This document shows, one piece after another, positions 7,918 to 22,302 of a stretch of 23,950 bases of DNA. The notes beneath the pieces were generated by a model. The model ran no database searches and was not told the origin of the DNA. It worked only from the letters and a program-made list of their open reading frames with translations. The stretch spans positions 1 to 23,950 of the forward strand of contig JAFQDR010000094.1 of the NCBI GenBank assembly GCA_017415945.1. Reading direction: 5' to 3'. Source of the stretch: Oscillospiraceae bacterium. GTDB lineage: Bacteria; Bacillota_A; Clostridia; Oscillospirales; Oscillospiraceae. Made by a program: the position numbers and the translations under genes. The first letter of the stretch is position 1; the number at the start of each line of letters is the position of its first letter.

Positions 7918-7983
7918 CTGCTTTCATGCAGATTCTTTTCCCCGCATATAGTATCTGCATAGGACATGAAAGGGGGGACGGTC

Positions 7984-8979
7984 ATGGGGCTGCGGAAACA
8001 GGCAGCACGCTTGGGTGCTGTATTGGTAGCGGGACATATTGCTCTGAACGCTATGGGCTATGCTTCTCCCCGCGAAGCCATGGGGGAGCTGTTTTCTCCG
8101 GAGCGTCTGGTGCGCATGGCAGTGACCATGGAGCTGGGCAAGCCTCTGACGGATACCACAATACCGCCCATGCCCACGGTAACGGTGGTGACCCATACGC
8201 CGCCCCCCTCGCCCACCCCCACGCCACGGATCCTCGATGCCCTCATCGGCGGGGGTATCCGCATTGACAACAGCACGGACTACACCATCGACACAGCCCA
8301 GCTGCTGACAGAGGGCCCCACCCAAAGCCTCGTAAAGGGACAGCCCCAGATCCTCATTATCCATACCCACTCCAGCGAGGCCTACACCATGGATGACTTT
8401 GACCGATATACCCCCACGGACACCACCCGCACCCAGGATACCAAGTACAACGTCATCCGTGTGGGGGATGCGCTGACGGATGCACTGCGGGAGCATGGCT
8501 TGGAGGTCATCCACGACCGCAGCATTTACGATTACCCCAGCTATACGGGCTCCTACACCCGCACGGGAGAGGCTATCCAACAGTATCTGGAAAAATACCC
8601 CTCCATTGCCATGGTCATCGACCTGCATCGGGATGCCATCGGTAGCGGTGACGTGGTGTACAAAACCTTGGCAGAGGACGAAGCCAGCCCCTGCGCCCAG
8701 ACCATGTTTGTGGTAGGCACCGACGACAGCGGCTTGGAGCACCCCAACTGGCAGGAGAACCTAAAGCTGGCACTGTATTTGCAGGCAGCGGTATACACTG
8801 CTCACCCTACCCTGCAGCGGCCCATCAAGTTAGTGCAGGAACGATACAACCAGCAGCTGACCACAGGCTCATTGATTTTGGAGGTGGGCAGCAACGGCAA
8901 CACCCTTGCGGAGGCCCTAAACGCCATCGAATTCTTCGCAGATGCCGCAGGCCCCGCGTTGGCTTCGTTAGTGAAATAG
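7984..8979 (+). CDS. spoIIP: Stage II sporulation protein P, peptidoglycan hydrolase
   Basis: A 331-residue protein. SpoIIP works with SpoIID and SpoIIM as the engulfment peptidoglycan degradation machine, as amidase and endopeptidase on the septal wall. Visible features: a weak N-terminal membrane segment (about 10-27), a Pro-rich linker (PPPSPTPTP, 73-81), then the SpoIIP domain from about 120 with ILIIHTHSSEAY (H127, H129, E132), VIDLHRDAI (H215) and LILEVGSNGNTLAEA (E300). These match the zinc and catalytic residues of the family. The start ATG 7984 has AAAGGGGGG 6 nt upstream; the ATG at 7966 overlaps this site. In Bacillus, gpr precedes spoIIP; here the gene is divergent from the TSCPD gene and has no gpr. 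A CATATAGTA box near 7945 could be part of a sigma-E-type -10, but the -35 is unclear. Confidence 0.93.
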   Translation: MGLRKQAARLGAVLVAGHIALNAMGYASPREAMGELFSPERLVRMAVTMELGKPLTDTTIPPMPTVTVVTHTPPPSPTPTPRILDALIGGGIRIDNSTDYTIDTAQLLTEGPTQSLVKGQPQILIIHTHSSEAYTMDDFDRYTPTDTTRTQDTKYNVIRVGDALTDALREHGLEVIHDRSIYDYPSYTGSYTRTGEAIQQYLEKYPSIAMVIDLHRDAIGSGDVVYKTLAEDEASPCAQTMFVVGTDDSGLEHPNWQENLKLALYLQAAVYTAHPTLQRPIKLVQERYNQQLTTGSLILEVGSNGNTLAEALNAIEFFADAAGPALASLVK

Positions 8980-9626: not shown

Positions 9627-9650
9627 AGTCTCCCTCTGTTGAGGGAGACT
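9627..9650 (-). terminator. Hairpin terminator between convergent genes
   Basis: Perfect 10-bp stem AGTCTCCCTC / GAGGGAGACT with a TGTT loop. The T-run (TTTTTATT) is on the minus-strand side, so it best serves the NAGPA gene that ends at 9780, after two repeats. Confidence 0.6.
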
Positions 9651-9779: not shown

Positions 9780-11480
9780 TCACCGTTCACTTTCGGGAAC
9801 CGCGCTGGCGAAATAGAACATATCGCTCATAGTGCGCTCCCCGGCATATGCGGGATCTGCAGTCAGCACGCCGTTAAAGGTCATATTGGCGGTCTTGCCC
9901 CCGTCCAGATTGTAGGCCTTGTGGACACCCTTTTCCAAAATAAACTGTGTGGACTCACTGAGAGTAATGGTGCGATCGGGCTCGCCCTCATTCCCCGCGG
10001 TCATCACAATGAAATGCAGGGGATCCACCTCCCCGATGGCCGCACGGGGATAGTTATCCAAGAACTCCCCGAGGATATAGGGGGGATGGGGCAGCACCTC
10101 ATAGTTTTCAATAATAACAGGCCCGAAGCCCAGAGAGAAGCTCACATTGTTGTCCGCTACATACTGCACAGCCTTCCCTTGACTGACCTCGTGTCCCTTG
10201 GTCAGAATCATATCCCCGTCATAGGTGAAGAAGGCATGTGCCAGAGAGGAGGGGTCTGTGCGGTACACCTGCCCCTGATAGGCCATGATGCCCACCTGAC
10301 GGAACATATAGAAATCCCCCGTCATGCCCAGCACCGCATTGGTACGCTGTGCCATCTGTGTGGGTGTCTCCCAGTTAAAGCTGCGGTAGGTATTGTCCGC
10401 CAGTACACGGCGAATCTGACTGCCGTCGCTGATAATGACCTCACCGAAGGTCACACAGCAGCCCTCACGGTCTTCCTTCCATGTGATAGCCAGAATGGTT
10501 TCATCATAATAATACTGCATTTGGGTACCGGGCTTGATGACAATATCACGGTTCCAGCTGATTTTGCGATCCCCTACCAGAGGTGCAGACTTTTCGATGA
10601 CCGCCTCGATCACTGCGGGGTCATCGGTGATGCCGAAGCGGTCGGGGTCGGGCTTAGGCGCCACCAAGTCCTCCACGGGAATTTTATAGGTCTTATAAAT
10701 CAAAGGCAGTCCTGCCACAATGTCGGTGTGTGCGGTGGTCATGCGGGCGGAAAGTCTCTCTGCCATTGCCCCATCCTTCAATGTCACAGACTTATCCCCA
10801 AGGGCATAGCCCTCCAAAGCGTTTTGCAAAGTCTCATCCAAAATAATCTGCCAGCCAAAGGGCGTCCAATACAAGGTGACCTCCACGGGAACAGTGTGCA
10901 GGTATTCCCCGCCGCGGTTCCACATAGTCTGCAGAGCCTCGGCGTAGGCAGTCTCGGTGATGCCGTCCAAATAGGCATCCCGTTCCTCGTTGTACAGCAC
11001 CTTGGCAGAGCTGCTTTCCACCGTGGCAGCCAGTACCGCTTCCGCTTCCGCCTCCAAGCCCTCCAGCCACGCATGGGTATTGAGAACCGTCAGTTCCACA
11101 GGCAGCACAGCAACGAAATCCTCCACCCGCGCTTTTCCGCAGTCAGCGGAAAGACTTTCGCAGACCAAGGGAATCAATGTCAGGTCGCCGCTTATTTTTT
11201 CCTCACCATACAGCCCCAAACTGCCATATACATACTTGTCCGCGGCCTCGTACTCCCCCGCAGCCAGTGCGGCGGTCATGCCTTTCACCGCAGCGGCGGG
11301 GTCGCCGGGGTAACAGATCACATCCCCCGCACCGAAAACAATAAGACCAAGCAGCAGAGTGGGCAGCAGGGCGATCACCGTCAGCAGCGCAAAGAGCCCG
11401 CGGGCCTTCCCGCACTTCACAGCAAGGAGCAACAGCAGCACGCAAACCGCAGCCGCTCCCAAAAACATTTTTATAAACAT
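9780..11480 (-). CDS. Membrane-anchored phosphodiester glycosidase (NAGPA-type) paralogue 1
   Basis: A 566-residue protein. Two membrane helices (about 5-22 and 30-52) are joined by a short basic loop, which places the rest outside. Residues about 57-225 form an alpha/beta domain (GDPAAAVKGMTAALAAGEYE, WTPFGWQI), collinear with the C-terminal part of the serine hydrolase at 16289-17971. Residues about 285-566 form the NAGPA-type domain: TGDFYMFR (387-394), GFGPVIIENY (451-460), NLDGGKTANM (524-533) and a C-terminal GERTMSDMFYFASAVPE. This is the most diverged of three paralogues; the usual Asn before GDF is Thr here. Family members cleave sugar-1-phosphodiesters; the target is likely a surface glycopolymer (inference). 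Start at ATG 11480: GGGAGG is 7 nt upstream, and a good promoter precedes it. Confidence 0.85.
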   Translation of the reverse strand: MFIKMFLGAAAVCVLLLLLAVKCGKARGLFALLTVIALLPTLLLGLIVFGAGDVICYPGDPAAAVKGMTAALAAGEYEAADKYVYGSLGLYGEEKISGDLTLIPLVCESLSADCGKARVEDFVAVLPVELTVLNTHAWLEGLEAEAEAVLAATVESSSAKVLYNEERDAYLDGITETAYAEALQTMWNRGGEYLHTVPVEVTLYWTPFGWQIILDETLQNALEGYALGDKSVTLKDGAMAERLSARMTTAHTDIVAGLPLIYKTYKIPVEDLVAPKPDPDRFGITDDPAVIEAVIEKSAPLVGDRKISWNRDIVIKPGTQMQYYYDETILAITWKEDREGCCVTFGEVIISDGSQIRRVLADNTYRSFNWETPTQMAQRTNAVLGMTGDFYMFRQVGIMAYQGQVYRTDPSSLAHAFFTYDGDMILTKGHEVSQGKAVQYVADNNVSFSLGFGPVIIENYEVLPHPPYILGEFLDNYPRAAIGEVDPLHFIVMTAGNEGEPDRTITLSESTQFILEKGVHKAYNLDGGKTANMTFNGVLTADPAYAGERTMSDMFYFASAVPESER

Positions 11481-11511
11481 GGAGAAGCCTCCCGAAACAG
11501 CAATTTTGAAT

Positions 11512-11540
11512 ATTGTAGCATTAGAGAGCGGAAATTGCAA
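11512..11540 (-). promoter_or_regulatory. Promoter of NAGPA paralogue 1
   Basis: -35 TTGCAA (11535-11540), 17-bp spacer, -10 TACAAT (11512-11517). The 29-bp core differs at one base from the promoter of paralogue 2 (13423-13451). Confidence 0.75.
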
Positions 11541-11548
11541 TTGCACCA

Positions 11549-11677
11549 GCCCCTCCTTCGATAAGGAGGGGTGCCCCGCAAGGGGCGGGGTGGTCGAAAA
11601 AACATTTATGAATAACTCTTGATAATTTCGACCACCCAGTCAGCTTCGCTGACAGCCCTCCTTATCGAAGGAGGGCC
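11549..11677. repeat. MITE-like inverted pair of family A repeats
   Basis: A 129-bp unit. The left end reads GCCCCTCCTTCGATAAGGAG and the right end is its near inverted copy, ending CTTATCGAAGGAGGGC. Inside are GGTGGTCGAAA (11590-11600) and its inverted copy TTTCGACCACC (11626-11636), plus the typical GTCAGCTTCGCTGAC hairpin. It lies between NAGPA paralogues 1 and 2, just upstream of the promoter of paralogue 1. Confidence 0.7.
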
Positions 11678-11684
11678 TTCATGC

Positions 11685-11712
11685 AAAAACCGAGACTCGA
11701 AAGAGTCTCGGT
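11685..11712 (-). terminator. Terminator of NAGPA paralogue 2
   Basis: Stem ACCGAGACTC / GAGTCTCGGT, loop GAAA (TTTC on the minus strand), then TTTTTG on the minus strand. Almost identical to the terminator at 13579-13604. Confidence 0.85.
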
Positions 11713-11720
11713 TTGATGAT

Positions 11721-13391
11721 TTATTCTTCCGGTATTGCACTTGCGAAATAAATAATATCGCTCATGGTGCGTTCCTCGCCCCAGTCGGGTCGATTCACCA
11801 AATGCCCGCCCAACACAACGGAAGCGGTCTGGCCGCCATCCAAGGTATATGCCTGCTGCACATTCTTATCGGCAATGTACTGCACTGCCTGCTCCAGTGT
11901 GCAGGTCTTGCGGCAGGGGCCATCAAAGTTGACGGTCATAACCATGTAGTGGAGCTCGTCCTTCTGGGCAATGGCCGCACGGGAATAGCGGTCGTTCACT
12001 TCCCCGATGGCATACTCCGAGGTATGCACAGGCTCCCCGTTTTCCACCATGACAGGGCCGAAGGCCACAGCGAACAGCACATCATTGTCCTTGATAAACT
12101 GCTCCGCTTCCGCACGGTTCATCAGCTCCCCGCGCTTGGAGAAGATCATGTTGCCATCAGCGGTAAAGTAGGCGGTATCCACGGAAGCGGGATTGTGGCG
12201 GTACAGCTTGCGCTGATAGACCGTAATGCCCAGATCACGGAAGCCGTAGAAGTCCCCTGCGGAGGCAAGGACCGCGTTGACATTCTGTGCCATCTTGGTG
12301 GGGTACTCGTCAATGCCGTAGTCATAGCGGTTGCCCGTGACGGCACGGCGCAGCTGGCTGGGGTGGGCAAACTTCACTTCCCCGAAGGTGACCATGTTGC
12401 CGTTGATAATTTCCTTCCATGTCAGCGCCAAAATGGTTTCATCATAGTAATAGCGGATAGGCTCCTCGGACCAGAAGTTCAAATCGGGATTCCACGCCAA
12501 TTCCTGACCGTCCAGCAGCAGCGCAGCCTCGTCAATGATGGCCTGCACCTCTGCCATGTCAAAGGTCTCCCCGAACACCCCTTGGGGCTTGGGCGCCTTC
12601 ACCGCATCCTCGGGAATCTCATAGGCCTTGTGGAGCAGGGGCAGTCCCTCCACGATTTCACCGTAAGCGGTGGTCATGCGTGCAGACAGCCGCCGGGCCA
12701 TAGCCCCATCCTGCAAGGAAACAGACGCATCCCCAAGGGCATAGCCTTCCAGAGCGGAAACCAAGGCCTCATTCAGCTGTACCTTCCAGCCGAAGGGGGT
12801 CAGCTTCAGGGTCACATCCACGGAGACGGTGTGCAGGTATTCCCCGCCCTTGGTCAGCATAGCTGCAAGTGCCTCATCACAAGCAGCCTCGGTTACACCA
12901 TCCAAATAGCCATCCCCCGCAGCATTGAACAGCAGCTCCGCGGGCTTGGCCTTCACCGTATCCGACAGCACCGCCAGAGCTTCCTCGGACCAGGCCTCCA
13001 GCCATGCCTCGGTGTCCAACACAGTCAGCTCCACAGGCACCACGGCGGCGAAGTCATCCACTTGGGCTTCCCCGCACTGCGGGTACAGGGTGCCATGCAC
13101 CAAATTGGCCAAGCTGCGGTCAAAGCCCGCCTCCGCGCCCATTCCCAAGGTGCCGTCCACGAAATCATTGGCTGCCTCATATTCCCCCGCGGCCATAGCA
13201 TTGACCATAGCCGTGACGGATGCGGCGGGATCGTTGGAGGAATTGACGGTCATCATCCCCAGCACCACCATAGGCACGAGAGCAGCCGCCGCCAGCGCCG
13301 CAAACCACATACGACCCTTTTCCTTTTTGATTGCGAGGCCGATCAGCAGCACACAAAGCGCCGCGGCCCCGATAAACATAGCCATCAGCAT
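11721..13391 (-). CDS. Membrane-anchored phosphodiester glycosidase (NAGPA-type) paralogue 2
   Basis: A 556-residue protein with the same plan as paralogue 1: two membrane helices (about 4-21 and 29-49), an extracellular alpha/beta domain (about 53-218, starting NDPAASVTAMVNAMAAGEYE and ending LTPFGWKVQLNEALVSALEG), a linker ending APKPQG, and the NAGPA domain (about 275-556). Key motifs are SAGDFYGFR (377-385), AFGPVMVENG (443-452), YTLDGGQTASV (515-525) and EERTMSDIIYFASAIPEE. Its NAGPA part is closest to paralogue 3 at 14654-16270 (both have DGQELAWNPDLNFW and ALTWKEIINGNMVTFGEV), while its N-terminal half matches paralogue 1. Start at ATG 13391: GGGAGG 7 nt upstream. It has its own promoter and terminator, so it is probably a single-gene unit. 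Confidence 0.86.
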   Translation of the reverse strand: MLMAMFIGAAALCVLLIGLAIKKEKGRMWFAALAAAALVPMVVLGMMTVNSSNDPAASVTAMVNAMAAGEYEAANDFVDGTLGMGAEAGFDRSLANLVHGTLYPQCGEAQVDDFAAVVPVELTVLDTEAWLEAWSEEALAVLSDTVKAKPAELLFNAAGDGYLDGVTEAACDEALAAMLTKGGEYLHTVSVDVTLKLTPFGWKVQLNEALVSALEGYALGDASVSLQDGAMARRLSARMTTAYGEIVEGLPLLHKAYEIPEDAVKAPKPQGVFGETFDMAEVQAIIDEAALLLDGQELAWNPDLNFWSEEPIRYYYDETILALTWKEIINGNMVTFGEVKFAHPSQLRRAVTGNRYDYGIDEYPTKMAQNVNAVLASAGDFYGFRDLGITVYQRKLYRHNPASVDTAYFTADGNMIFSKRGELMNRAEAEQFIKDNDVLFAVAFGPVMVENGEPVHTSEYAIGEVNDRYSRAAIAQKDELHYMVMTVNFDGPCRKTCTLEQAVQYIADKNVQQAYTLDGGQTASVVLGGHLVNRPDWGEERTMSDIIYFASAIPEE

Positions 13392-13422
13392 GGAGAATCC
13401 TCCCAAAAGACGTATTTTTGAT

Positions 13423-13451
13423 ATTGTAGCATTAGACAGCGGAAATTGCAA
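13423..13451 (-). promoter_or_regulatory. Promoter of NAGPA paralogue 2
   Basis: -35 TTGCAA (13446-13451), 17-bp spacer, -10 TACAAT (13423-13428). The leader from here to the start codon is also alike in both genes (CAATAT, GGGAGG, TTCTCCATG). Confidence 0.75.
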
Positions 13452-13464
13452 TTCTACTATTTCA

Positions 13465-13556
13465 TGTAGGGACCGTCCTCCCGGACGGTCCGTGCCGCAC
13501 TTATGCAATCACCAATGTAAATAACAAGCGGACCGTCGAGGACGACGGTCCCTACA
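13465..13556. repeat. Inverted pair of family B repeats
   Basis: A 92-bp unit bounded by TGTAGGGACCGTC (13465-13477) and its exact inverse GACGGTCCCTACA (13544-13556). Each end also has an internal hairpin (GGACCGTCC...GGACGGTCC; GACCGTC...GACGGTC). Confidence 0.75.
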
Positions 13557-13578
13557 ATTCCATTCGTATTCATTAAAA

Positions 13579-13604
13579 AACCGAGGCTCGAAAGAGCCTC
13601 GGTT
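13579..13604 (-). terminator. Terminator of the three-gene envelope operon
   Basis: Perfect 11-bp stem AACCGAGGCTC / GAGCCTCGGTT with a 4-nt loop, then TTTTTT on the minus strand, 7 bp after the Lgt-like stop codon. Confidence 0.88.
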
Positions 13605-13610
13605 GGGATA

Positions 13611-14657
13611 TTATACTCCTACGGTTTCCTTCAGGCCTGCGTTCAGTTCCAGACGTTCCTTTTCTTCCTTGGACAAGCAAACGGTGTGGTACATAATAAC
13701 CACCAGAACAGACATGATCAGCAGCAGGGCAGCCATGCCGGAATATACAGGCAGGTACATATTGCCGTAGCGCTGCACCAGATATTCCATATAGCCCGCA
13801 CCGCCCGCGGCACCAAGGAACAGCACCCACATAACCGCCTGCTTGACCATGAAGCCGTTGGCACGGAGGGACATCACGGTGTAATAGATCATCACCCCTG
13901 CCAGAGACACCGCACCGAGGATCATCACCAGAGAGATGAAGCCGTTGATGGGCAGGAAGCTGGAGTCATAACGGGTGGAGTCCAGAATCACCTGTGTGGC
14001 ACCGTAAAATGCCAGATACAGCAGAGCCACATTGCCGTGAACGGGAGTGTCCCCCTTCATGGGCCAGCTGCGGCGCTTATTGAAGTAGTGCATGACGATG
14101 ACGAACAGCACCAGCATCACAATAAACTCAATGCAGAAGGTAGCCAGACGGTATTCCACCGCACCGTTTGCGGTGGTAACGGGAGATGCCAGAGGCAGCA
14201 TCTGCAGATCGGGGTTATTGATCTGGATCTTGCCGCGGCAGGATACGTTGAACAGTGCGCTCATACGCAGCACCGCAACACCCAATGTGGCAGCGGGTGC
14301 GATGGCATCGAACATCTTGCCCGCGCTGTCGGTCAGGCGCAGTGCCTTCACGATCAGCACCGCAACGACAACGCCGAAAAAGGCACCGGGCAGGCAGTAA
14401 TCCCCTGCGCCGAATTCCGTCAGAGCACCCACCAGACCGCTGTACTGCTCCGCATGGCAGTACCAGTGGATCAGTCGGCTGAACACAGCACCCAGCACAA
14501 TGGAGATGGGCAGCATGGCCCACATGGCGCTCTTCTTGCCGCCGTTTGCCACATACAGACCGTAAGCGAAGTTAAAGCAAACCGCCACAGCCAAGAAAAT
14601 CACGATGGCACTCCAGTAAATGACAATGCCGCCGATACAAATTGCTACTTGATTCAT
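13611..14657 (-). CDS. Divergent Lgt-like (prolipoprotein diacylglyceryl transferase family) membrane protein
   Basis: A 348-residue polytopic membrane protein, longer than typical Lgt (about 260-290) by extra C-terminal helices (about 272-326). The Lgt-like layout is visible: N-terminal helix with YWSAIVIFLAVAV, a GAVFSRLIHW segment, LPGAFFGVVVAVLIV where Lgt has its FHGG motif, RMSALFNVSCRGKI in place of the R-x-G-N-F-x-N-G-E signature, and HGNVALLYLAFYGATQVILDSTRYDS in place of the C-terminal R/E region. Lgt moves diacylglyceryl from phosphatidylglycerol to a lipobox Cys. Here the essential His appears to be Phe94 and the signature Asn appears to be Ala134, so ordinary Lgt activity is doubtful. 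Its start overlaps the stop of NAGPA paralogue 3 (ATGA), a sign of translational coupling. Confidence 0.75.
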   Translation of the reverse strand: MNQVAICIGGIVIYWSAIVIFLAVAVCFNFAYGLYVANGGKKSAMWAMLPISIVLGAVFSRLIHWYCHAEQYSGLVGALTEFGAGDYCLPGAFFGVVVAVLIVKALRLTDSAGKMFDAIAPAATLGVAVLRMSALFNVSCRGKIQINNPDLQMLPLASPVTTANGAVEYRLATFCIEFIVMLVLFVIVMHYFNKRRSWPMKGDTPVHGNVALLYLAFYGATQVILDSTRYDSSFLPINGFISLVMILGAVSLAGVMIYYTVMSLRANGFMVKQAVMWVLFLGAAGGAGYMEYLVQRYGNMYLPVYSGMAALLLIMSVLVVIMYHTVCLSKEEKERLELNAGLKETVGV

Positions 14658-16270
14658 TCCTCGCTGCCTCCTTCCGGAACTGCGGATGCAAAGTAAATAA
14701 TGTCGCTCATGGTACGTTCGTTGCCCCAGTCAACACGGTTGACCAGCTCGCCGTTAAATACCATAGAGGAGGTCTGACCACCGTCCAGAGTGTATGCCAT
14801 GCGTACATCCTTGTCGTAGATGTACCGGGCTGCCTGTGCCAGGGTACAGGTGGTCTGGCAGGGGCCTTCAAAGTTGATGGTCATGGTAATGTAGTGCAGG
14901 TCATCCTTCTGTGCGATGGCTGCACGGGAATAGCGGTTGTTGATCTCGCCGATGGGATACTTTTCGGGGATCTCCAGCAGCTGACCGTTTTCCACCAGAA
15001 TGGGGCCGAAGGCCACAGCGAACACCACGTCGTTGTCCGCTACGAACTGCTCAGCGGCTGCCTTATCGGCAAGCTCCCCGCGCTTGGAGAAGATCATGTC
15101 CCCATCAGCGGTGAAATAAGCGGTATCCACCGTCTTGGGGTTGTGGCGGTACATCTGCCGCTGATAGACGGTAATGCCCAGATCGCGGAAGTTGTAGAAG
15201 TCACCGTTGATGGCAAGGACAGCGTTGACGTTGGATGCCATATTGGTGGGGTATTCCTCCACGGAGGAGCCGTATTCATTGCCCGCCAGTGCGCGGCGCA
15301 GCTGGCTGCCGTGGGCGACCTTCACCTCACCGAAGGTGACCATGTTGCCGTTGATGATTTCCTTCCAGGTCAGTGCGAAGATGGTTTCGTCATAGTAATA
15401 CTGGAAGGGCTCTTCCTCCCAGAAATTCAAGTCGGGGTTCCATGCCAGCTCCTGACCGTCCAGCAGCTCGGCGGCTTCCTCGATCACCGCCTGCACCTCT
15501 GCCACATCAAAGGTGGAGCCGAACTTGCCCTGTGCCTTGGGGGCCACAAGGTCGGATTCGGGAATGGTGAATACCTTCTTGATATAGGTCATGTTTGCCA
15601 GTGCGTCCGCAGCGGCATTGTTCATGGAGTTGCTGAGATTCTGGGAGAGATCCAGCTTCTTTGCGGTATTGGCAGCGGTAGCGGTGCCGGTACCGGGATG
15701 GATGGTCAGACCCACCCACAGCATACACACCATGCTCACAAGAATCAGCAGAGCAGTCAGAGTCTTGGGCACATTGCGCACAGGCTTGGGTTCCTTCTTG
15801 GGCTTGGGAGCCTTGGGAGTTTTTTCCGCCTTGGGCTGCTTGGGTGCCTTGGGAGCCTTTTCCTTCTTTTCGATTTTGGGAAGCTTGGGCTTGGAGAGCT
15901 TGGGGGCTTGCGCCTGCTTGGCCTCTGCCTTGGGTGCTTCCTCGATCTCTGCAGCGGGTGCTTCTGCCTTGGGCTGCTCGGTCTGCTCCAAAGCTGCCTT
16001 CTGGGCTTCGATGGCCTGCTGTTCTTCCATAGCCTGCTTCACTTCCGCCTTTTTTTCCGCATTGGCCTTCATGTTGGCCAGAATGCGCTTTTCAATAGGA
16101 ACTCCGCGGTCGGGACGGGCAGGCGCAGTCTTGGGCGTGGTCGCTCTGGTTTCCTGAGCGGCCTTGCGGGCAGCGGCTCTGCGCTTTGCTTCCGCTGCTT
16201 CGTCAAAGGAGGCTGCTTCCCTGAGAATGCGGTCCAGTTCAGTTTCCTGCTGCTTATTCACATCATTCAT
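14654..16270 (-). CDS. NAGPA-type phosphodiester glycosidase paralogue 3 with Lys/Ala/Pro-rich cytoplasmic tail
   Basis: A 538-residue protein with a single membrane helix (about 169-190). Residues 1-168 are cytoplasmic and charged: a helical Ala/Glu/Arg-rich part (1-100), then a Lys-Ala-Pro-rich low-complexity part (100-166) like a histone H1 tail. Residues about 250-538 form the NAGPA domain, close to that of paralogue 2, with the fullest motif set: INGDFYNFR (354-362), AFGPILVENG (420-429), YTLDGGQTSSM (493-503), VNRVDWGNERTMSD. It lacks the two-helix plus alpha/beta half of paralogues 1 and 2; that half is found at the C terminus of the gene just upstream (18-bp gap). Start supported by AAAGGAGG 8 nt upstream. 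It is the middle gene of a three-gene operon. Confidence 0.85.
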   Translation of the reverse strand: MNDVNKQQETELDRILREAASFDEAAEAKRRAAARKAAQETRATTPKTAPARPDRGVPIEKRILANMKANAEKKAEVKQAMEEQQAIEAQKAALEQTEQPKAEAPAAEIEEAPKAEAKQAQAPKLSKPKLPKIEKKEKAPKAPKQPKAEKTPKAPKPKKEPKPVRNVPKTLTALLILVSMVCMLWVGLTIHPGTGTATAANTAKKLDLSQNLSNSMNNAAADALANMTYIKKVFTIPESDLVAPKAQGKFGSTFDVAEVQAVIEEAAELLDGQELAWNPDLNFWEEEPFQYYYDETIFALTWKEIINGNMVTFGEVKVAHGSQLRRALAGNEYGSSVEEYPTNMASNVNAVLAINGDFYNFRDLGITVYQRQMYRHNPKTVDTAYFTADGDMIFSKRGELADKAAAEQFVADNDVVFAVAFGPILVENGQLLEIPEKYPIGEINNRYSRAAIAQKDDLHYITMTINFEGPCQTTCTLAQAARYIYDKDVRMAYTLDGGQTSSMVFNGELVNRVDWGNERTMSDIIYFASAVPEGGSEE

Positions 16271-16288
16271 GGATGTTTCCTCCTTTCA

Positions 16289-17971
16289 TCAGTATGCGCC
16301 GCCGCACAGTGCGCGCAGCAGTGCTTCGTCGGCTTGGATCTTCCAGCCGTCGTCGGTGTAGATCAGGGTCAGTTCCATACCGCTGGTGGTACGGTAATAT
16401 TCGGGCTTTTCCAGCAGCTCGCCCACAGCCTGGGTATAGGCCTGCTGAGTGACCTCGGGCTTAAAGCTGTTGTCCTCGTTGTAAACAGCGCTTGCAGGGG
16501 CATTGCGCACCATTTCCTCCAGCACATCGTGGGTCTTGTCCCCCAGCTTGCTCTGGAGACGCACAACGTCCAGATGCTCCATGAGCACCTGCTGCTTTGC
16601 GGTCAGACCTTCCTCCAGACAGTCTCCGTAGAGGCGGTAGGAATATGTACTGTGCAGCTGGGCGCTGATGAGCTTGCTTGCTTCATCGGCAGGCTCGTTT
16701 TCCAGACCCAGAGAGCTGTAGTAATCCAGATGCTTGTAGGCTTCCTCGTAGTTGCCTGCCATCACCGCATCGAAGAATGCGGTCACGGTTTTCTGAGGAT
16801 CTCCTGCGGGAGCGGTTATGACGGTACCCAGCTTGGGCCCCATGATGCACACCAGCATGGCAGCACCGAAGCATACCACAGATACCACACCGGGCAGGAA
16901 GCGGATCTTCTTGCGGATGGCAGCCACCATCACCACAAGCAGCATCAGCACGGATACGCCCAGCACCACAACGCACAGAACCAAAGCGCCCCGCATTTCC
17001 GCATCCCCCAGGATCTGGGAGATGTTCAGCTTATTGGCGTTCTCGCCCCGCTCCGCGGTCAGTCGATCCAGCTCCGCAATGGCATTTTCCTCTGCCAGAC
17101 GGGCAGCTTCCTCCGCAGCCATCTGCTCCTCCTGCTCAATACGGATGGCGGTGTGGTACTGGGTGTACTCTGCCATCAAAGTCGCATAGTTGGACAGACA
17201 GGTGTAGGGACGCTTGATGCCGTTGGTGAACATGACAATGGCAATGGGATCATCGGTGTAGACAATGCCGCTGTCGTTGATCTGCAGGGTGTTGCCTGTT
17301 TCCAGATAGCCGTACTTGTGGGCGATCACATAGTCCTGGTCAAAGGCATTGAAGTAGTTGTTGGGCTCCGCATCCTTCATATAGCCGATCACGGAGGGGA
17401 AACGATCCTCGCCCCCCTGATACAGGGTGTTCAGGCAGGTGATGATCTGGCGGGCGGTGAAGAAGTTGTTCTCGTAGAACTTGGCATCCACGGTGTCCGC
17501 ATCCTCACCCATGTAGGGGCAGAAGTAGCGGCGATAATCGGGATAGCCCCCCAGACCGCTGCGCAGGTAATCGGAGAATTCGTTGTTGGATTCCACGATA
17601 GAGCCCTGAATCAGCTTGGAATACACCACGCCCTTGACCTTATCATCAAAGGTCATCTCCCCCTTGGAGATGCGCTCGGTGTATACCATGTTCAAAGGCA
17701 CCTTGTACAGGCTCGCCGCCACATTGTACTTATCGGCGTTGATGTAATGCTCCTCGCCGGTCACCAGATTGCGGTAGCCCAGAGCAATGTCCTCCGCATC
17801 CAGATCGTGCTCGATCATGTACTGCTCGACCACTTCCTCCCAGGTCTTATTCTCGAAGCGGGAGTCGTCGATTTTAATTTTCGTTGTTGTTTCCGCATGA
17901 GCCGTCACTGCCAGAGATGCGGCGGTGCATACTGCCAGAGCAAGGCTCAGGAATCTTTTCATAAGTTTCAT
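16289..17971 (-). CDS. Exported serine hydrolase (class A beta-lactamase-like) with coiled coil, two membrane helices and C-terminal extracellular domain
   Basis: A 560-residue protein. Residues 1-26 are a signal peptide (ending VTAHA). Residues about 40-265 form a penicillin-recognising serine hydrolase domain with S87-L-Y-K90 (SxxK), S128-N-N130 (SxN) and K219-Y-G221 (KxG). All three motifs needed for catalysis are present. Residues 270-312 are an Ala/Glu-rich coiled coil. Two membrane helices (about 328-351 and 357-378) are joined by IRKK, so both ends face outward. Residues about 389-555 (GDPQKTVTAFFDAVMAGNYE, LIYTDDGWKIQ) match the extracellular domain of NAGPA paralogues 1 and 2. True beta-lactamase activity is unlikely; a DD-peptidase or sensory role is possible. 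It is the first gene of the operon; the start at 17971 follows AGGACGG, and an ATG at 17962 is an alternative. Confidence 0.83.
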   Translation of the reverse strand: MKLMKRFLSLALAVCTAASLAVTAHAETTTKIKIDDSRFENKTWEEVVEQYMIEHDLDAEDIALGYRNLVTGEEHYINADKYNVAASLYKVPLNMVYTERISKGEMTFDDKVKGVVYSKLIQGSIVESNNEFSDYLRSGLGGYPDYRRYFCPYMGEDADTVDAKFYENNFFTARQIITCLNTLYQGGEDRFPSVIGYMKDAEPNNYFNAFDQDYVIAHKYGYLETGNTLQINDSGIVYTDDPIAIVMFTNGIKRPYTCLSNYATLMAEYTQYHTAIRIEQEEQMAAEEAARLAEENAIAELDRLTAERGENANKLNISQILGDAEMRGALVLCVVVLGVSVLMLLVVMVAAIRKKIRFLPGVVSVVCFGAAMLVCIMGPKLGTVITAPAGDPQKTVTAFFDAVMAGNYEEAYKHLDYYSSLGLENEPADEASKLISAQLHSTYSYRLYGDCLEEGLTAKQQVLMEHLDVVRLQSKLGDKTHDVLEEMVRNAPASAVYNEDNSFKPEVTQQAYTQAVGELLEKPEYYRTTSGMELTLIYTDDGWKIQADEALLRALCGGAY

Positions 17972-18005: not shown

Positions 18006-18033
18006 ATTCTACCACAATATGACGTGATTTCAA
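18006..18033 (-). promoter_or_regulatory. Promoter of the three-gene envelope operon
   Basis: -35 TTGAAA (18028-18033), 16-bp spacer, -10 TAGAAT (18006-18011), leader of about 30 nt. Confidence 0.65.
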
Positions 18034-20781: not shown

Positions 20782-22302
20782 TTATTCCATCAAATTCACA
20801 TCAGCCACGCAGATGTACCAGCCGTCGTCTATGTATTCCGTCAGCAGCACAAGCTCCGCCCCTCGATTGGCCGCCTCTGCCATAGCAAGGTCGGCGTGGT
20901 GGGCATCCAAGAACACATAGGCACAGCTTTCCGCATCCGCATCGAATACGGTGGGGTCACAGAGATACTCCATAGACTTGAAAGGCTCCGAGGGCTGATC
21001 CCAGAAGCCCCCGGTGATTTCACCATCGGAAGCCAGCGCAAGCTGCTCGGCGCAGTTCCAAGGGGAATACACCGTGGTAATGCCCCGCTCGATCAAAGAA
21101 GCCGCCACATCCCCATAACGCTCGCTGTTCCGATTTTCGGGCACGGTCATCAGCCCCGTGAGACAGTTGAGCCCGAACAGGCCCACAGTGCCCAACAGTA
21201 CCAAGCCGCGGAAGTATTTTACTCCGTGGGTATACAGCAGCACCGCAGCCACCGCAGCCATGGGAAGCAGCATAAAATAGTAAATATCCCGCACCGCCAT
21301 GGTAGTGAGAATGTCGATTGCCAAAATCACAAGAGGACTCAGGGTAAACAGCAGCAGCCACGCAGCACCCTCGCTGTCTTTTGCCTTCACCGTCACATAC
21401 AGCACCAGACACCACAAAGGCACACCCACCAAGGCCACGGCCCACAGCAGCAATCGATACTGCCCCGGCACCAGCATAGACAGTGCCGTTTCCACAGCGG
21501 GAACCATGCCGCGAAGCATCTCACCAATGCTGTTGAGCCCGATGCCTCCGAAAATCTCCACTTGTTCAATGGGCAGCAGCTTTGCCGCCACCAAGCCTGC
21601 AAAATTTGCAAGAGTCAGACAGCAAACTGCCAACAAAGAAACATTCCACAGTTTTTCCTTTTTCCAAAGCCGATACAGAGCGCAGCAGCCCTCCACCGCC
21701 AGCAGAGGACAAATCATCACAGCAGTCTGCCGCAGACTCTGGACGCCCATAGCAAAGGCAAGGATGCAGGCAAGCACCAAGCCGCGGGGCTTTCCCTCTC
21801 GGCTGCGGACATAGCACCCAAAGGCCAAAAACGCCGCAATGAGATAGCAGCTGTAATAGGAGCACATGGTAAAAAACAGCTGCCAGCCCTTCATGGAGTA
21901 CACGGGATCCCCCACCAGGAAGCTCAAGGACAGCAGCAGCACACAGCCGAGCAGTGCCTTTTTGCCGTCACGCAGCATCCAAGCGAAGCTCAGCAGCACA
22001 AGGACGGTCATCACGCAGGAGGCGATCCCCATGGCAAGCATCATGTCATGGGTCAGCCCGTAAAACACCGCCGCCAACACGGGGGTAGCCAGCGCATACA
22101 GCTGATTGCCGAAGACCCAGCCTTCGGGAAAGAGGCTTTTCGTCTCCCACATACGGGCCGCCACCATCATATCCGTATACATATCCGTTTGATAGAGAAT
22201 GGGATCCCCCGCCAAATTGATGCGGAACACGCCAAACAGGCACACTGCCAGCATCAAGCACAGAAGCATCTCCACCCAAAACGATTTGATTTTATCCTTC
22301 AA
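20782..22302 (-). CDS. Polytopic membrane protein, GT-C glycosyltransferase-like, with TTG start
   Basis: A 506-residue protein with about ten to eleven membrane helices (residues 10-425) and a soluble C-terminal domain (about 425-506). The first outside loop after helix 1 has GDPILYQTDMYTDMMVAARM; acidic residues at this place are typical of GT-C enzymes (PMT, ArnT, PglB types), which use lipid-phosphate-linked sugars on the outer membrane face. Family assignment is tentative because no signature is decisive. The C-terminal part (RYGDVAASLIERGITTVYSPWNCAEQLALASDG) resembles periplasmic-type domains of other GT-C-like proteins. The start is TTG 22302, with AAGGAGG 10 nt upstream and no ATG until codon 12; a rare start may lower expression. 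It has its own promoter and terminator. Confidence 0.75.
   Translation of the reverse strand: MKDKIKSFWVEMLLCLMLAVCLFGVFRINLAGDPILYQTDMYTDMMVAARMWETKSLFPEGWVFGNQLYALATPVLAAVFYGLTHDMMLAMGIASCVMTVLVLLSFAWMLRDGKKALLGCVLLLSLSFLVGDPVYSMKGWQLFFTMCSYYSCYLIAAFLAFGCYVRSREGKPRGLVLACILAFAMGVQSLRQTAVMICPLLAVEGCCALYRLWKKEKLWNVSLLAVCCLTLANFAGLVAAKLLPIEQVEIFGGIGLNSIGEMLRGMVPAVETALSMLVPGQYRLLLWAVALVGVPLWCLVLYVTVKAKDSEGAAWLLLFTLSPLVILAIDILTTMAVRDIYYFMLLPMAAVAAVLLYTHGVKYFRGLVLLGTVGLFGLNCLTGLMTVPENRNSERYGDVAASLIERGITTVYSPWNCAEQLALASDGEITGGFWDQPSEPFKSMEYLCDPTVFDADAESCAYVFLDAHHADLAMAEAANRGAELVLLTEYIDDGWYICVADVNLME

Follow-up and report, generated by a model that had tools for sequence, protein, structure and literature searches.

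A conserved gene module of a serine hydrolase, phosphodiester glycosidases and an Lgt-like protein in gut Oscillospirales

Contig JAFQDR010000094.1 of an Oscillospiraceae bacterium (assembly GCA_017415945.1), analysed here over its positions 1 to 23,950 (the window), carries five adjacent minus-strand genes for a serine hydrolase (SH) with a C-terminal domain called SHC, three NAGPA-type phosphodiester glycosidases (NAGPA1 to NAGPA3) and a protein related to the prolipoprotein diacylglyceryl transferase Lgt. Because these genes are linked, co-occur and are in places fused, we conclude that SH-SHC, NAGPA and the Lgt-like protein form a real, conserved and narrowly distributed module. The module is apparently undescribed: in the searched literature, which mostly did not extend to subscription papers, nothing named both a diacylglyceryl transferase and a phosphodiester glycosidase, and no title or opening part of an abstract described such a gene set. 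An earlier note on this DNA had proposed a linked, undescribed system at this place. Its reading of the locus as a whole is partly supported, and the proposed linkage recurs in many genomes and is accompanied by gene fusions.

In the direction of transcription the order is SH, NAGPA1 and Lgt-like as one operon, followed by NAGPA2 and NAGPA3 as single-gene units:

16289..17971, minus strand: SH, with a signal sequence, a domain of the penicillin-binding protein (PBP)/beta-lactamase fold at residues ~36-275, two transmembrane segments (TM) C-terminal of it by hydropathy, and an extracytoplasmic SHC domain at ~385-560
16292..16819 (limits approximate), minus strand: SHC-coding part of the SH gene, found with our own hidden Markov model (HMM); no Pfam family
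14654..16270, minus strand: NAGPA1, with a K/P/A-rich N-terminal part, one TM and a phosphodiester glycosidase domain (PF09992)
13611..14657, minus strand: Lgt-like protein, with seven TM by hydropathy and a C-terminal extension (PF01790)
11721..13391 (start revised from 13508), minus strand: NAGPA2, with two TM, an SHC domain and a NAGPA domain (PF09992 and our own SHC HMM)
9780..11480 (start revised from 11546), minus strand: NAGPA3, with two TM, an SHC domain and a NAGPA domain (PF09992 and our own SHC HMM)

The earlier description of five adjacent genes, three in an operon and two on their own, all encoding membrane proteins, agrees with what we found. Open reading frames (ORFs) lie where they had been placed, simple hydropathy makes all five products membrane-bound, and the Pfam scores exceed their cut-offs for SH (PF13354, 54.7 bits, cut-off 22), for NAGPA1, NAGPA2 and NAGPA3 (77.9, 69.9 and 56.8 bits, cut-off 25) and for the Lgt-like protein (69.6 bits, cut-off 24.9). 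G+C at third positions is 0.66-0.73 in the five ORFs, and the NAGPA1 and Lgt-like genes overlap by 4 bp. The stops and strands given earlier stood, whereas the starts of NAGPA2 and NAGPA3 had to be moved and the SHC domain had been missed.

Co-occurrence was assessed with a search from the Lgt-like protein, which presupposes neither SH nor NAGPA, in a sample of 200 genomes of one family. Lgt-like genes were found in 15 genomes, and the NAGPA subfamily, defined by profile A3 at E 1e-40 (a strict threshold that selects a subfamily and not all NAGPA proteins), was found in exactly the same 15. The probability of such a match is 7e-23 if genomes are independent, and kinship makes the true figure less extreme. 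All 17 Lgt-like copies in these genomes adjoin a subfamily NAGPA by profile coordinates, and 13 region maps agree; the co-occurrence check that the earlier note had suggested for Oscillospirales thus places the arrangement well beyond this one genome. The SH profile (E 1e-30) matched in 40 of the 200 genomes, namely in 15/15 with an Lgt-like gene versus 25/185 others, counting among the 15 one genome (G242) whose sole match covers the SHC part only, at a contig end. At most six SH and seven NAGPA candidates were scored per genome, so that the counts may lack some SH or NAGPA genes. In G014 the NAGPA match crosses one stop, whereas L062, a locus of that genome, has an open ORF.

A search started from SH gave 80 loci, 40 of which also hold NAGPA and Lgt-like genes; some of the remainder run into a contig end. 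SH lies upstream in 39 of the 40 complete loci, and 7.4 kb downstream in the remaining one (L070). Among 34 genomes with an operon-less SH locus, 29 hold an Lgt-like gene elsewhere and five do not, compared with 15/200 in the family sample. Twenty Lgt-like places were inspected (19 of the 34 Lgt-like matches in genomes with an operon-less SH locus, and one from G018): NAGPA is directly adjacent in 19, and the order in L129 is NAGPA-SHC-Lgt-like. The collected Lgt-like rows number 54 including the window, and represent 51 distinct loci since L090, L091 and L095 repeat L006, L045 and L070. In 38 of these rows (36/51 distinct loci) the NAGPA gene shares exactly 4 bp with the Lgt-like gene. Scripted adjacency placed NAGPA beside Lgt-like in 52/54, the two others (L067 and L078) being missed through an over-long ORF start; by profile coordinates the gap is 14 bases in the genome of L078 (G016), and in L067 the NAGPA ORF stands directly before the Lgt-like part.

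The three proteins have also diverged together. Over 45 rows, two of them repeats (L090 and L091), pairwise divergence correlates at 0.80 for SH and NAGPA, 0.84 for SH and Lgt-like and 0.92 for NAGPA and Lgt-like, against a largest value of 0.24 among 500 permutations; common descent alone contributes to the observed correlations. In L078, SH and NAGPA are fused into one protein of 714 residues. Leucine-rich repeat (LRR) domains occur on SH in L098, L101 and L066, the last from a genome (G305) without an Lgt-like match, and at the C-terminus of the Lgt-like protein of L131, which scores 444 bits with our own profile and has no PF01790 match at E 0.001. The LRR parts of the L131 Lgt-like protein and the L101 SH are homologous (BLASTP 3e-13).

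Over these samples the module stays within, or close to, a single family, and in that family its occurrence is patchy (15/200). The order sample held Lgt-like genes in 2 of 147 genomes, the centre genome included, and in the class (291 genomes) and phylum (299 genomes) samples a high score was seen in the centre genome alone. Nineteen further class matches and three phylum matches were not counted: their scores, no higher than 79 and 46 bits, are those expected of canonical Lgt. The records of the 80 SH loci are named as Oscillospiraceae, Ruminococcaceae, Clostridia(les), Eubacteriales or Limivicinus bins, and many come from ruminant gut by sample name.

Judged by its residues and its company, the Lgt-like protein is not Lgt, because canonical Lgt coexists with it and because Arg239, Tyr26 and Asn146 are gone though Arg143 is kept. 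Against the TIGR00544 equivalog model of NCBIfam it scores 57.7 bits, below the cut-off of 118.9; the canonical Lgt also present in module genomes lies above this cut-off in 18/20, the remaining two scoring 114 and 108 bits. The Lgt of E. coli and three canonical Lgt proteins encoded in module genomes served as references for an alignment of 84 Lgt-like relatives. The Arg143 column holds R in 83 and K in one, Asp129, Arg246 and Asp249 are each retained in all 84, Tyr235 in 68, and the positions of Arg73, Gly98 and Gly108 in 83-84. Tyr26 is replaced by Ser in 82 relatives and retained in none, Glu243 is Asp in all 84, and Asn146, which we take to be important in Lgt, is Ala or Ser in 82 and Asn in none. 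The family has invariant residues of its own, among them R61, W65, D117, D226, S227, R229, D231, E291, Y292, Q295 and R296, which argues against decay; its own strongly conserved polar residues are R61, H64, D117, D226, R229 and D231, and its C-terminal extension bears a conserved EYLVQR stretch. Mao et al. (2016; PMC4728403) give E. coli Lgt seven TM, report that Arg143 and Arg239 are essential, describe Arg239 as intolerant to mutation and as more conserved than any other residue, and ascribe a role to Tyr26. A search of PDB with the Lgt-like alignment profile gave no match at E 1. More Lgt paralogues were noticed at G003:C11:49581-50354, G003:C17:37210-37944 and G001:C81:24684-25478, with TIGR00544 scores of 96, 93 and 64 bits.

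The NAGPA proteins look enzymatically active from their conserved residues. R449 and D496-G497-G498 of NAGPA1 are invariant in all 16 sequences of alignment A3, and the Arg of the R-x-A-I-G stretch and the LDGG motif align with the solved NAGPA structures 6pku and 6u11. This Arg and the D-G-G motif are presumably the catalytic residues. The single TM of NAGPA1 follows a basic and proline-rich part of 170 residues, and hydropathy gives NAGPA2 and NAGPA3 two TM each. A second NAGPA with an SHC domain lies 3' of the Lgt-like gene in L004, L005, L006 and L010, the position that NAGPA2 has in the window; for L010 these NAGPA and SHC domains are called on overlapping ORFs.

SH likewise looks active. 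Its SxxK (S87/K90), SxN (S128/N130) and K-x-G (K219/G221) motifs are invariant in 90/90 sequences, and its best relative in PDB by profile search is 3cjm (7e-14). In class A beta-lactamases the general base is the omega-loop Glu166. SH residues 150-171, the omega-loop stretch, contain no invariant Glu across the aligned relatives, and with the NCBIfam model bla_class_A (NF033103) SH reaches 17.2 bits where the cut-off is 200, so that a classical class A beta-lactamase is out. Because of this omega-loop stretch, SH looks closer to a DD-peptidase or esterase than to a beta-lactamase.

The SHC domain is common to the C-terminus of SH and the N-terminal halves of NAGPA2 and NAGPA3, where our HMM places it between the TM and the glycosidase domain. 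In other genomes it is encoded by a small separate gene directly 5' of NAGPA, or is fused to NAGPA. In a Pfam scan of 33 relatives, PF13354 alone matched in more than five, and SHC corresponded to no Pfam family. In 9 of 37 operon-less SH loci the next gene, with a 4-bp overlap, encodes a short protein that has one TM and a long N-terminal tail. These nine partners (L008, L011, L013, L015, L019, L020, L059, L060 and L072) have 149-262 amino acids, no NAGPA domain and, at the N-terminus, a DILAEF-type motif.

A related motif lies in the N-terminal part of NAGPA1. Among 45 N-terminal rows (L091 repeating L045), 22 have a form like DLDAILAEF or DIDAILREF, and the rest, mostly short-tailed, lack it; weaker forms are ELDSILKEI in L001 and, in the window:

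16217..16243, minus strand: N-terminal motif variant ELDRILREA of NAGPA1, recognised by eye in comparison with relatives

A DNA pattern for the motif matched 18 places in 12 genomes holding Lgt-like genes, and its reversed control matched none. These places were ten NAGPA1 N-termini, two SH partners, five extreme C-termini of the lipoprotein signal peptidase LspA and one protein that by eye resembles a PP-loop tRNA-modifying enzyme. PF01252 confirmed two of the five LspA proteins and two further ones; we identified the other LspA visually and with a core pattern. Over the 200 family genomes the pattern matched 42 places in 38 genomes (control, three matches), including LspA tails in module-free genomes, other N-terminal tails and some chance-like matches. 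Of 11 module genomes that could be read, 10 carry the motif on the LspA tail, as do 10 of 16 genomes with SH only and 14 of 41 with neither; the first and last differ with a Fisher p of 0.001, the 14/41 set being partly chosen for long tails, which raises its rate. Of the 15 module genomes, G170, G242 and G329 were left out, and in G228 a contig end cuts the sequence. The LspA core was not recognised for 29 handles, and the non-module genomes were partly chosen for long LspA frames.

LspA with a long tail whose end is a DLDDILAEF-type motif was seen in L136, L146-L149, L151, L152, L159, L162, L163, L166, L167, L169, L177 and L178, the tails spanning 128-287 residues where measured; L136, L149, L151 and L159 are the Pfam-confirmed cases. 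A DLEDILAEF-type motif also lies on long N-terminal tails of other proteins (L157, L161, L170-L174, L176 and L179). A scan of six of these nine gave a HAD hydrolase domain in L179 and, in the stretch available for the remaining five, nothing in Pfam. The idea of a tag limited to the module and LspA was therefore rejected. Since the motif is present on unrelated tails and on LspA of module-free genomes, the best reading is that it serves generally for docking or sorting in the family and is common to LspA and the module.

What the module does can be proposed only tentatively. We give a probability of roughly 0.35 to the reading that the three proteins assemble or trim a lipid-anchored, sugar-phosphate-containing surface molecule at the outer face of the cytoplasmic membrane, a location suggested by the layout of the TM. 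SH, NAGPA and the Lgt-like protein would then act on one and the same molecule. The Lgt-like protein, keeping part of the Lgt active site, would take a diacylglyceryl group from phosphatidylglycerol, and its acceptor would be no lipobox cysteine; a sugar or sugar-phosphate carrier is the likeliest candidate. NAGPA would cut, or transfer at, a sugar-1-phosphodiester in this molecule, the PBP-like SH would remove or exchange a D-Ala-type ester or peptide, and SHC, joined in some lineages by LRR domains, would hold the substrate. Through the cytosolic motif that NAGPA1 carries in many genomes and that also stands at the end of LspA, the module may be associated with the machinery that processes lipoproteins. 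The fuller version, in which Lgt-derived lipidation of a glycan or sugar-phosphate is coupled to NAGPA and the PBP-like hydrolase at LspA by a cytosolic docking motif, strikes us as rather improbable. Several observations weigh against the proposal. The Arg239 column of the 84 Lgt-like proteins reads E in 65, Q in 15, I in three, D in one and R in none, and because this residue is always replaced the Lgt-like protein may transfer no diacylglyceryl at all. The motif in the window's own NAGPA1 is a variant only, and the motif occurs on LspA of module-free genomes (14/41) and on other long-tailed proteins. Of the substrates suggested earlier, sugar-phosphodiesters, D-Ala-type compounds and phosphatidylglycerol can be kept at the level of the protein families, and phosphatidylglycerol as a donor for the Lgt-like protein is weakened by the lost Lgt residues.

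Other explanations share part of this evidence. The retained Arg143 and other Lgt residues, the canonical Lgt alongside, which would leave the paralogue free to specialise, and the LspA motif in 10/11 module genomes against 14/41 with neither gene would all fit a second lipoprotein pathway, in which the Lgt-like protein modifies special proteins at a non-cysteine residue or a divergent lipobox, NAGPA and SH process or deglycosylate them, and the LspA motif marks a joint complex. Such a pathway seems unlikely to us: no dedicated lipoprotein substrate was seen beside the module, whose flanks differ by lineage, the motif is also found on unrelated tails, and it is not evident what NAGPA would do in protein lipidation. 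It is equally doubtful that the module is a sensor or quality-control device, with the Lgt-like protein a dead lipid-binding scaffold, SH a penicillin-binding-like sensor, and SHC and LRR domains binding ligands. The complete loss of Arg239 (84/84), the changes of Tyr26 to Ser and of Asn146 to Ala or Ser (82/84 each), the LRR domains on SH and Lgt-like proteins of some genomes and the overlapping short, long-tailed single-TM partner at 9/37 operon-less SH loci speak for it. However, NAGPA and SH retain their motifs, no regulator, kinase or sigma factor is consistently linked among the 80 loci, and a mere scaffold would have no need of the conserved R61, H64, D117, D226, R229 and D231.

The module might instead degrade or remodel teichoic-acid-like or peptidoglycan-linked phosphodiester polymers, the Lgt-like protein re-lipidating released fragments in a form of recycling. 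NAGPA frees phosphodiester-linked sugars according to PMC12419801, and a PBP-like hydrolase would suit D-Ala trimming, but among the conserved neighbours and the scanned window genes we noticed none for teichoic acids, and we hold this reading to be quite improbable. That common envelope genes merely happen to stand together can be set aside as extremely improbable. Each domain family is common by itself, yet co-occurrence, adjacency, fusions and correlated divergence all contradict a chance neighbourhood, which was rejected on these grounds.

Signals around the window genes are consistent with three transcription units, promoter-like sites numbering 12 in the window against 5.3 +/- 2.4 in shuffled sequence and terminator-like sites 12 against 7.2 +/- 3.4:

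18006..18033, minus strand: promoter-like site 5' of the three-gene operon, TTGAAA-16-TAGAAT with TG before the -10; consensus match only
13579..13604, minus strand: terminator-like hairpin 3' of the Lgt-like gene; consensus match only
13423..13451, minus strand: promoter-like site of NAGPA2, TTGCAA-17-TACAAT, the same as in NAGPA3; consensus match only
11687..11714, no strand assigned: hairpin between NAGPA2 and NAGPA3, listed by the scan on the plus strand; on the minus strand the T run comes after it
11512..11540, minus strand: promoter-like site of NAGPA3, TTGCAA-17-TACAAT; consensus match only
9627..9650, minus strand: terminator-like hairpin 3' of NAGPA3; consensus match only

The DNA upstream of NAGPA2 and NAGPA3 is near-identical, with the same promoter-like site and the same ribosome-binding site GGGAGG. 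Because GGGAGG precedes each ATG in this DNA, the ATGs at 13391 and 11480 are very probably the true starts, and close homologues of NAGPA2 mostly have 556 amino acids, its length when counted from 13391. With their near-identical upstream DNA the two genes look like duplicates that have retained the control region.

Genes flanking the module vary between lineages. The commonest flanking cluster, viewed through representatives, is found at 19 of 81 loci, the window included. Flanking genes for TPR, DUF4037, DsbH-type thioredoxin, metallo-beta-lactamase fold, MATE and sigma factor proteins, among others, were rejected as parts of the module. PADLOC models gave no matches to the five window proteins at E 0.01. 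Elsewhere in the window, ordinary envelope or sporulation genes encode a SpoIIP-type sporulation protein (7966-8979, plus strand) and a cell-wall hydrolase (PF07486; 6469-7311, minus strand), and 20782-22302 (minus strand) encodes a hydrophobic protein of 506 residues with no Pfam or NCBIfam match.

Lgt has been thought of as an enzyme with a single job. If the proposed reading is true, its fold has been reused for another envelope reaction in gut bacteria, by a paralogue family that is without Arg239 and stands beside a sugar-phosphodiester glycosidase in every copy examined. The gene set is small and testable, bacterial NAGPA proteins are seldom mentioned in the searched literature, and the motif on LspA tails offers a lead of its own into how this family's membrane enzymes are brought together.

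Among known systems, canonical Lgt (PF01790, TIGR00544) shares with the Lgt-like protein the seven TM and the positions of Arg73, Gly98, Gly108, Asp129, Arg143, Arg246 and Asp249, whereas the Lgt-like protein falls below the TIGR00544 cut-off, lacks Arg239, Tyr26 and Asn146, has Asp for Glu243, and adds a C-terminal extension and a NAGPA neighbour. SH has the SxxK, SxN and K-x-G motifs of PF13354 beta-lactamase-like hydrolases (PDB 3cjm, 6v4w) and differs from them in its C-terminal part of two TM and SHC and in having no invariant omega-loop Glu. The three window copies of NAGPA/DUF2233 (PF09992) keep the R-x-A-I-G Arg and LDGG, with the domain above cut-off in each, but are membrane-anchored and carry a long tail or an SHC domain. 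The accessible part of the lipocone paper (PMC12419801) describes TelC-NAGPA surface proteins of spore-forming Bacillota; they resemble the module in pairing a surface NAGPA with a second envelope-acting enzyme, and differ in that NAGPA and TelC are joined in large proteins, with no operon of Lgt-like protein and serine hydrolase described in that part.

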